A DNA stretch of 64,000 nt from Modestobacter roseus (GTDB lineage: Bacteria; Actinomycetota; Actinomycetes; Mycobacteriales; Geodermatophilaceae): contig NZ_VLKF01000001.1 of the NCBI RefSeq assembly GCF_007994135.1, positions 4,154,001-4,218,000 on the forward strand, given 5' to 3'. The number at the start of each line of letters is the position of its first letter. Position 1 is the stretch's first letter. Below, in pieces: positions 38,427 through 40,326 of this stretch. The notes below the pieces were generated by a model, which worked only from the letters and a program-made list of their open reading frames with translations, made no database searches and was not told the origin of the DNA. The translations under genes were made by a program, and so were the position numbers.

Positions 38427-40160
38427 TCAGCGCTGGGCGCGGTTGACCGCGGAGACGATCGCCCGCAGCGAGGCGGTCACGATGTTGGCGTCGATGCCCA
38501 CGCCCCACAGCACCCGCTCGCCCACGGCGCACTCGACGTAGGAGGCGGCGCGGGCGTCGCCGCCGGCCGAGAGGGCGTGCTCGGCGTAGTCGAGCACCCG
38601 GACGTCGACGTCGACGCTGCGCAGCGCGTCGACGAACGCGGCGATCGGGCCGTTGCCCCGGCCCTGCAGGGTGACCGGCACCCCCGCGTCGACCAGGTCG
38701 ACCCGGATCTCGTCGGGCCCGCCGCCGGAGGCGGTGTGCTCGTGACCGGCGAGGGAGAACCGGCCCCACGGTGCGTCGGCGTCGGGCAGGTACTCGTTCT
38801 TGAACGCCGCCCACATCTGCTGGGCGGTGACCTCGCCGCCCTCGTCGTCGGTGTGCCGCTGGACGACCGCGCTGAACTCGATCTGCAGTCGCCGCGGCAG
38901 CTCCAGCTGGTTCTCGGTCTTCATGATGTAGGCCACGCCGCCCTTGCCGGACTGGCTGTTCACCCGGATGACCGCCTCGTAGCTGCGGCCGACGTCCTTC
39001 GGGTCGATCGGCAGGTACGGCACCGCCCACGGGATCTCGTCGACGCTCTTCCCGGCGGCCGCGGCGTCGGCGGCGAGCGCCGTGAAGCCCTTGTTGATCG
39101 CGTCCTGGTGGGAGCCGGAGAAGGCCGTGTAGACCAGGTCGCCGCCGTAGGGGTGCCGCTCGTGCACGCCGAGCTGGTTGCAGTACTCGACGGTGCGGCG
39201 GATCTCGTCGATGTCGGAGAAGTCGATCTGCGGGTCGATGCCCTGGCTGAACAGGTTCAGCCCCAGGGTCACCAGGTCGACGTTACCGGTCCGCTCCCCG
39301 TTGCCGAACAGGCAGCCCTCGATGCGGTCGGCGCCGGCCCGGTAGCCCAGCTCGGCAGCGGCCACGGCGGTGCCCCGGTCGTTGTGCGGGTGCAGGGAGA
39401 GCACGACGGCGTCCCGGCGGCCCAGGTTGCGGTGCATCCACTCGATCTGGTCGGCGTAGACCGTTGGCTCGGCCATCTCCACCGTCGCCGGCAGGTTCAG
39501 GATGGTCGGCCGGTCGGCGGTCGGCTCCCACACGTCGGTGACGGCGTTGCAGACCTCGACGGCGAACTCCAGCTCGGTGCCGGTGAACGACTCGGGGGAG
39601 TACTCGAACCGGATCTCGGTGTCGCCGGCCTGCTCGGCCAGCTTGCGCACCAGCCGGGCACCGTGGACGGCGATGTCGGTGATCCCGGCGCGGTCGGAGT
39701 TGAAGACCACCCGCCGCTGCAGCGTGGAGGTGGAGTTGTACAGGTGGACGATCGCCTGGCGGGCGCCGCGCAGCGAGTCGAACGTCCGCTCGATCAGCTC
39801 GTCGCGGGACTGCGTGAGCACCTGGATGGTCACGTCGTCGGGGACGGCGTCGTCCTCGATCAGCTGGCGGATGAAGTCGAAGTCGGTCTGGCTGGCCGCG
39901 GGGAAGCCGACCTCGATCTCCTTGTAGCCCATCCGGACCAGCAGCTCGAACATCCGCCGCTTGCGCTCGGGGCTCATCGGGTCGATCAGGGCCTGGTTGC
40001 CGTCACGCAGGTCGACCGCGCACCAGCGCGGGGCCTGGGTGGTGACCGTCTCCGGCCAGGTGCGGTCGGGCAGCGGTACCGGGGTGAACGGCGCGTACTT
40101 GCCGATCGGCATCCCGGAGGGGCGCTGGGGGTTGCGGGCGTGCGGGTGGGACTCGCTCAT
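38427..40160 (-). CDS. leuA: 2-isopropylmalate synthase
   Basis: 577 residues from ATG 40160, with AGGAGACC upstream; the actinobacterial-length LeuA. It catalyses the first committed step of leucine synthesis from 2-ketoisovalerate and acetyl-CoA. Catalytic TIM-barrel motifs: [17 protein letters not shown] (metal-binding Asp), [31 protein letters not shown] (HxH-type metal site) and [14 protein letters not shown]. The C-terminal regulatory LeuA domain covers about residues 435-577 and mediates leucine feedback. The 153-base leader contains a leucine-rich leader peptide and hairpins (see the leader entries). The gene faces lysC-asd as in Mycobacterium. Confidence 0.96.
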
Positions 40161-40168
40161 CGGGAGGT

Positions 40169-40208
40169 CTCCTGGTGCGAGGGCTGAGGCGTGCGGGCGG
40201 CGCACCAG
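40169..40208 (-). promoter_or_regulatory. hairpin overlapping the leuA Shine-Dalgarno
   Basis: CTGGTGCG (40201-40208 on the minus strand) pairs perfectly with CGCACCAG (40172-40179), whose last bases are part of the AGGAG ribosome-binding site at 40169-40173. When formed, it would restrict leuA translation. Confidence 0.55.
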
Positions 40209-40246
40209 CTCCGGGGGAGGTCAGCAGGCGCCGGGACGCGCGAACA

Positions 40247-40287
40247 CCGCGGCGAGGGGGCCGACCTAGGAGAGGGCCTCGCCGCGG
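40247..40287 (-). promoter_or_regulatory. leader hairpin overlapping the leucine leader peptide
   Basis: An 11-bp perfect stem CCGCGGCGAGG/CCTCGCCGCGG (40277-40287 with 40247-40257) begins just after the Leu codons and includes the end and stop of the leader peptide, so a ribosome stalled on the Leu codons would change its folding. Confidence 0.6.
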
Positions 40288-40313
40288 CGGGTAAGGAGGA
40301 GGCTGCCGCGCAC
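40266..40313 (-). CDS. leucine leader peptide of the leuA attenuator
   Basis: A 15-codon frame from GTG 40313 to TAG 40266-40268 encodes MRGSLLLTRRGEALS, with three consecutive leucine codons (CTC CTC CTT, one of them the rare CTT). A -10 element TACCGT lies seven bases before the GTG and no ribosome-binding site is present, so the leader is probably the very 5' end of a leaderless transcript. Ribosome pausing at the Leu codons under leucine starvation would decide between the hairpins at 40247-40287 and 40169-40208. Leucine-rich leaders before leuA are known in actinobacteria; this particular one is inferred from sequence only. Confidence 0.72.
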   Translation of the reverse strand: MRGSLLLTRRGEALS

Positions 40314-40320
40314 GTGGGCC

Positions 40321-40326
40321 ACGGTA
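40321..40326 (-). promoter_or_regulatory. -10 element of the leuA leader
   Basis: TACCGT on the minus strand, seven bases before the leader-peptide GTG. Confidence 0.55.

Follow-up and report, generated by a model that had tools for sequence, protein, structure and literature searches.

A LEU element before leuA of Modestobacter roseus as a probable ribosome-sensing leader, with copies of its scaffold before other branched-chain amino acid genes

The analysed window, which is the whole stretch of 64,000 nt and to which all coordinates refer, contains on its minus strand a short leader open reading frame (ORF) located directly upstream of leuA, together with a set of paired sequences between the leader and the leuA start. 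In the direction of transcription, the following features were assigned:

40326-40321, minus strand: TACCGT, a -10-like hexamer (TANNNT), 7 nt before the leader GTG
40313-40266, minus strand: leader ORF VRGSLLLTRRGEALS plus stop, 15 codons, GTG start (40313-40311) and TAG stop (40268-40266), probably leaderless
40301-40293, minus strand: sensor run CTC CTC CTT (Leu-Leu-Leu), assigned from the sequence
40287-40277, minus strand: 5' arm of helix P1, CCGCGGCGAGG, inside the leader ORF, assigned by covariation
40267-40260, minus strand: 5' arm of helix P2, AGGTCGGC, in the P1 loop and overlapping the leader stop codon
40257-40247, minus strand: 3' arm of P1, CCTCGCCGCGG, assigned by covariation
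40225-40218, minus strand: 3' arm of P2, GCTGACCT, the pseudoknot partner
40208-40201 with 40179-40172, minus strand: 8-bp hairpin CTGGTGCG/CGCACCAG, not conserved
40173-40169, minus strand: leuA Shine-Dalgarno sequence AGGAG, whose complement CUCCU lies in the Leu run, assigned from the sequence
40160-38427, minus strand: leuA, 2-isopropylmalate synthase, ATG at 40160 (NCBIfam NF002991, TIGR00970)

P1 is a perfect 11-bp hairpin that begins 5 nt past the last Leu codon. P2 comprises 8 bp including one G-U pair and completes an H-type pseudoknot, and the 3' arm of the separate 8-bp hairpin overlaps the Shine-Dalgarno sequence by 2 nt. The distance from the leader stop codon to the leuA ATG is 105 nt. 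A first-pass annotation of this DNA had described the TACCGT hexamer, the seven bases that separate it from the GTG, the 15-codon frame with three Leu codons and the 11-bp hairpin behind them, and all of these were recovered exactly as described; helix P2 was absent from that annotation and was found here. A terminator scan of positions 40100-40420 detected no intrinsic terminator with a U-tract, and the single-sequence fold energy of the leader is ordinary (z 0.04). Upstream of leuA and on the same strand, an ORF with similarity to helix-turn-helix (HTH) proteins and a putative start (40365-41018, minus strand) ends approximately 50 nt before the leader; its C-terminus is Cys-rich and it has only sub-cutoff NCBIfam matches. 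Several copies of a direct repeat, GTGTTCTGTGGACAGAG, were noticed by eye at 41050-41115 between this HTH-like gene and a divergent aspartate kinase gene.

A search for leuA in 59 genomes, this one included, gave a strong match in 55 and weak matches only in the other four (G012, G019, G031, G047). Within the same family, 31 loci were compared (L002-L030, L061, L062), two of which (L006, L030) are short of upstream sequence, so that 29 loci, this one included, were counted. A leader of the form MRGxLLL..RGExLS, in which x and the dotted positions vary, is present in 28 of these 29, and the 29th (L061) has a leader of related form, MYGDLLLVRRAEGL; the leader of L021 is one codon shorter. The proposal of a leucine leader peptide before leuA, against which loss of the Leu triplet in relatives would have counted, is thus borne out, as both the triplet and the leader form are kept. 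In an alignment of 22 same-family elements (A1), no cell of P1 is unpaired, and pairs 2-8 of P2 are kept in 21 or 22 rows, whereas pair 1 occurs in this genome only; covariation of P1 or P2 was not seen within these 22 rows, which vary too little. The first-pass annotation had also pictured a switch between P1 and the 8-bp hairpin at the ribosome-binding site. This hairpin does exist and overlaps AGGAG by 2 nt as proposed, but among the 22 aligned sequences it is complete in this genome alone, the other 21 keeping 1-6 of its 8 pairs. It was therefore rejected as the switch, and the conserved partner of P1 is the pseudoknot. The closest named relative (L121; 90% leuA identity) is labelled 'UNVERIFIED_ORG: Bacillus sp. 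AZ43'; its leuA and its leader look actinobacterial and the label is probably wrong.

Across the class, a search anchored on leuA covered 199 loci (L001 left out), 9 of which gave no match. In the 190 remaining leuA upstream regions a simple rule identified 179 leader ORFs, and the 11 regions without a leader include some that lack upstream sequence. P1 with at least 8 of its 11 pairs was present in 156 of the 179 leaders, giving 151 non-redundant elements, and a usable leuA start and Shine-Dalgarno sequence were available for 148 of these. The arms of P1 and P2 were placed by maximising pairing, a step that makes the raw P1 percentages too high (all 11 pairs form in 112 and 10 pairs in 39 of the 151 elements) and is shared by the P2 controls, in which a fully paired 6-bp P2 was found for 397 of 746 species-swapped and 271 of 755 shuffled partners as compared to 117 of 151 real elements. 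Covariation was evident in an alignment of 68 sequences picked for diversity (A2; one P1 pair is gapped in 31 of the 68 rows): 98.2% of 717 P1 cells were paired, 6 of the 11 pairs had changed on both sides, none of 500 shuffles reached any of five measures, and sliding the P1 partner by one to three columns lowered the paired cells to 35-73%. Alignments of leuA leaders, which had been suggested as a way to find co-varying stems, support P1 and not the 8-bp hairpin. The leader stop codon lies inside the P1 loop in 146 of the 151 elements, and a run of at least five T between P1 and leuA occurs in 2 of 148.

The distance between the end of the TANNNT hexamer and the start codon was 6-7 nt in 86 and 9-10 nt in 37 of the 151 elements, with each of the other distances (0-39 nt) occurring in at most 6, a spacing that fits transcription from the start codon itself or from some three bases upstream of it. 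The transcript in this genome is probably leaderless or nearly so, as the first-pass annotation had supposed from the hexamer; the available text of a report on Streptomyces lividans, which describes a leaderless leader before leuA (PMC8079986), points the same way. A covariance model with P1, built from leuA leaders (R1), matched this genome strongly once (E 2.4e-11), and further copies of the element elsewhere in it were rejected, the next best match having E 0.49. Within the class, R1 had a match with an E-value of at most 1e-4 in 239 of 246 genomes; among 292 genomes drawn from the phylum, 58 had a match at E 0.01 or better, with many of the matches outside the class being weak. The 4227 models of Rfam contain no leader family that matches here: at gathering threshold only tRNA was found, elsewhere in the 64,000 nt, and up to E 1 the sole match in 40140-40360 was an unrelated miRNA model (E 0.19, below its gathering score). 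Rfam also gave no match at gathering threshold in 11 loci with other copies of the element.

The enterobacterial leu leader encodes a Leu-rich peptide, uses ribosome stalling as the signal and ends in a terminator with a U-tract. Compared to this classical leucine attenuator, the element described here lacks the U-tract terminator and possesses a pseudoknot and a probable leaderless start. Polycysteine attenuators built on leaderless short ORFs have reportedly been described from mycobacteria by Canestrari in 2020; judged by the title, they likewise combine a leaderless short ORF with codons for the amino acid of the pathway, although the amino acid is a different one.

The leader belongs to the kind that Seliverstov et al. 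(2005; PMC1262725) described as the LEU element, as characterized in the accessible text of that paper, and hence is not new. The two share the place before leuA, a leader ORF with a Leu run, a pseudoknot of two helices between the Leu run and leuA, and the absence of an obvious terminator; in both, the Leu run is complementary to the leuA Shine-Dalgarno sequence (here CUCCU/AGGAG), and no essential difference was seen on the basis of that text. The LeuL1 peptide of S. lividans TK24, MRFGLLLLSCRGEGL, has 15 residues and is encoded by a leaderless ORF before leuA without a typical Rho-independent terminator, according to the available text (PMC8079986), which gives it four consecutive Leu codons as compared to three here. 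In loci with a peptide identical to LeuL1, P1 mostly carries a C-C mismatch, which is found in 11 of the 151 elements. The leuA leaders of Corynebacterium also have a Leu run before leuA (C. diphtheriae, MNRANLLLLRRGGSQA), and the parts seen of the respective publications present these peptides under attenuation (PMC4046766, PMC5784534).

Codon usage in the Leu run differs from that of leuA itself. Of the 151 leaders, 131 close the run with CTT and 2 with CTG, as compared to 2.4% CTT and 70% CTG among Leu codons when the coding parts of leuA from 124 loci are counted. CTG is avoided in the last three Leu codons (2, 30 and 23 of about 151), whereas the fourth, outermost codon is CTG in 39 of 59 cases. 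The Leu run pairs with the Shine-Dalgarno sequence slightly better than with permuted partners (38 of 2000 permutations were as good). When synonymous runs were weighted by the background usage, a median of 40% paired with the Shine-Dalgarno sequence as well or better; this pairing was therefore rejected as the cause of the CTY-CTY-CTT choice.

R1 matched at two or three places in approximately 70 of the 239 genomes. A total of 88 extra elements was collected, 12 from the 15 regions of a first batch (L249, with E 0.0017, was used; L250-L252 were left out) and 76 later; they were selected through the model, in most cases as a match other than the best of its genome, and thus are neither a random sample nor, in the case of related copies, independent. 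According to tblastn with six reference proteins, the first downstream gene is leuB in 36 cases, leuA (including paralogues) in 29, leuC in 11 and a gene for a stand-alone LeuA allosteric-domain protein in 5; in the other 7 cases none was recognised in the fetched stretch, and these were left out of the Fisher test and the final codon counts. Profile searches confirmed leuC in L238 (NCBIfam) and in four more loci (Pfam Aconitase), leuB and ilvE in L242 and L249 and, by Pfam, in L246, and LeuA_dimer (PF08502) in L245 and L247. Behind leuB, ilvE follows within the stretch in 30 of the 36 copies. The leuB copies carry seven family labels, the leuC copies one (f22) and the domain protein copies one (f8).

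The sensor codons of these extra elements differ according to the gene that follows. All of the last three codons are Leu in 10 of 11 leuC and 22 of 29 leuA leaders, and Val or Ile occurs among them in 0 of 11 and 2 of 29, respectively. Before leuB, Val or Ile is found in 34 of 36 leaders (VLIL, FVLI, LVLI, VRIL and similar), and before the LeuA-domain genes in 5 of 5 (MLVV, KLLV and similar). Taken together, 2 of 40 leuA/leuC leaders contain Val or Ile as compared to 39 of 41 leuB/regulatory-domain leaders (Fisher 3e-18, with copies that are not independent); the two misses in the latter group, L318 and L322, precede leuB, have a frame without V, I or L and were left out of the P2 count. As in the leuA leaders, rare codons prevail: GTA accounts for 38 of 46 Val, ATT for 15 of 35 Ile and CTT for 19 of 53 Leu codons in the leuB and domain copies, against 1.6%, 1.8% and 1.6%, respectively, in the leuB/ilvE coding sequences of the leuB copies. 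The scaffold is retained in the leuB, leuC and domain copies: P1 is kept, with compensatory changes, and 40 of 50 elements have a 6-bp P2 as compared to 130 of 289 with swapped partners. As would be demanded of a ribosome sensor, the sensor codons match the amino acid made by the regulated gene, and they continue to do so where a different gene is regulated.

We consider the region, with a probability of about 0.72, to be a LEU element that serves as a cis-acting, ribosome-sensing leader of leuA and acts on translation. In the mechanism that we infer for this genome, including the direction and details of the switch, transcription would start at the leader GTG or a few bases from it, as deduced here from the -10-like spacing and as reported from mapping of transcription starts for the S. 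lividans relative, and a ribosome would translate the 15 leader codons. If charged tRNA-Leu is scarce, the ribosome would be expected to wait at the Leu run, the last codon of which is the rare CTT. A ribosome at the first Leu codon would cover the run and leave the downstream P1/P2 pseudoknot intact, and the covered run would have no access to the Shine-Dalgarno sequence, so that leuA would be translated. If leucine is plentiful, the ribosome would reach the stop codon in the P1 loop and be released; the leader could then refold with the Leu run against the Shine-Dalgarno sequence, an order of folding events that is presumed, and leuA translation would be lowered. Translation of leuA is the likeliest output because a U-tract is lacking and a base stem of Leu run and Shine-Dalgarno sequence has been published (in the accessible text of PMC1262725). 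The suggestion that the ribosome controls leuA translation rather than termination, which the first-pass annotation had made with the same lack of a U-tract in mind, is thus probably right.

A fold model restricted to secondary structure, without pseudoknots, was applied to the 148 elements and supported this switch in part. When the Leu run was masked, as by a ribosome whose A site holds the first Leu codon, the mean accessibility of the Shine-Dalgarno sequence rose from 0.243 to 0.365, increasing by more than 0.05 in 71 elements and decreasing in 13. In the model's results for the own family (n = 22), masking did not open the Shine-Dalgarno sequence (mean 0.340 before and 0.337 after), and deeper stalls lowered its accessibility, which fell to 0.16 once the P site held the last Leu codon. 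For the leader described here, the modelled accessibility went from 0.42 to 0.477 upon masking and then to 0.049 at a deeper stall. This closing is likely due to the freed 3' arm of P1, which begins with CCUC and could pair with the Shine-Dalgarno sequence. A ribosome with the last Leu codon in its P site was rejected as the opening state, as it closes the Shine-Dalgarno sequence in the own family; a stall at the first Leu codon would be compatible with the own-family model. In the same model, the Shine-Dalgarno sequence opens as well when the ribosome sits on the stop codon (0.37 over all elements).

Alternatively, sensing by the ribosome might govern transcription attenuation, through a Rho-dependent or non-canonical terminator, instead of leuA translation. 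A leader peptide followed by hairpins is typical of attenuators, and a second kind of leuA leader does occur in other classes of the phylum: in 19 loci (L091, L094-L097, L099, L100, L103-L105, L108, L110-L114, L116-L118; labels f43, f56, f60, f66 and others) the Leu run closes the leader or lies no more than about three codons from its end, and at least five consecutive T lie between leader and leuA in 13 of the 19, several of them visibly after a G+C-rich hairpin. Five more loci of this batch had no leader by the rule used. These 13 leaders resemble classical transcription attenuators and are unlike the pseudoknot type, and control of leuA probably has one output in some classes and another output in others. 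The T-runs that mark the second kind are nearly absent from the scaffold-type leaders (2 of 148), and positions 40100-40420 do not contain the intrinsic terminator and U-tract that follow the antiterminator of a classical attenuator; the LeuL1 leader of S. lividans, too, is reported without a typical Rho-independent terminator in the available text (PMC8079986). Attenuation of transcription is thus an unlikely explanation of the element before this leuA.

A second alternative, which was favoured by Seliverstov et al. (2005), sees in the element a site to which a regulatory protein binds, the leader codons being incidental. The strong conservation of P1 and P2 would agree with it, and so would the mutants discussed in the accessible text of PMC1262725: mutations of the S. 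coelicolor leuA leader had some effect that was inconsistent with classical attenuation (citing its ref. 22), mutations of the Leu codons left regulation uninfluenced according to its conclusion, and, since these mutants did not fit classical attenuation, a binding protein was preferred, with the orthologues of ML1624 proposed by phylogenetic pattern. In the same text, the S. coelicolor codon mutants left the choice between a ribosome and a protein as reader undecided. The copies before other genes bear on this choice. The sensor codons change with the downstream pathway on a constant scaffold and are rare each time, a swap for which a protein blind to codons would not select, and Val and Ile codons appear ahead of genes that serve the branched-chain amino acids as a whole; this natural codon-swap experiment favours the ribosome. 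Pairing with the Shine-Dalgarno sequence fails to explain the choice of codons, and runs such as GTA-CGC-ATT-CTT before leuB show, by eye, no anti-Shine-Dalgarno resemblance. The protein-binding mechanism, as outlined in the accessible text of PMC1262725, is a poor fit to the leuB(-ilvE), leuC and LeuA-domain copies, which that text does not mention, and we regard it as very improbable. A short ORF that arose by chance, with hairpins as a by-product of high G+C content, would agree with the ordinary fold energy but is refuted by the class-wide conservation and covariation, which leave this explanation a negligible probability.

The ribosome-sensing interpretation extends beyond this locus. The P1/P2 pseudoknot scaffold with its leaderless or nearly leaderless ORF is likely to be a general actinobacterial ribosome sensor that is programmed by its codons, for Leu before leuA and leuC, for Val, Leu and Ile before leuB-ilvE and for Leu and Val before the LeuA-domain gene, that favours rare codons and that acts on translation without a terminator. 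The LEU element, its leader and its pseudoknot are known, and the non-leuA copies with codons matched to the pathway appear to be new: a search of the titles and abstract openings of open-licence papers found no description of the leuB-ilvE, leuC and LeuA-domain copies. With the covariance model, which has no counterpart in Rfam, a regulon for branched-chain amino acids can be traced through the class. The outline drawn by the first-pass annotation was correct; the element is real and conserved, and its relatives point to a wider regulon.

Among the copies, the proteins with PF08502 form a small group of their own (L245, 312-704; L247, 2087-2521, minus strand; and, by similarity, L248, L317 and L323), each preceded by an element with Leu/Val codons. 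These stand-alone LeuA allosteric-domain proteins could be separate regulators of LeuA. Between leuB and the Val/Ile/Leu element that precedes it, 8 of 9 loci inspected (L242, L246, L283, L287, L297, L302, L306, L345) contain a small ORF in which a motif like ALQESMDRRDNGGE recurs from locus to locus; the ninth, L249, has a small ORF without the full motif.
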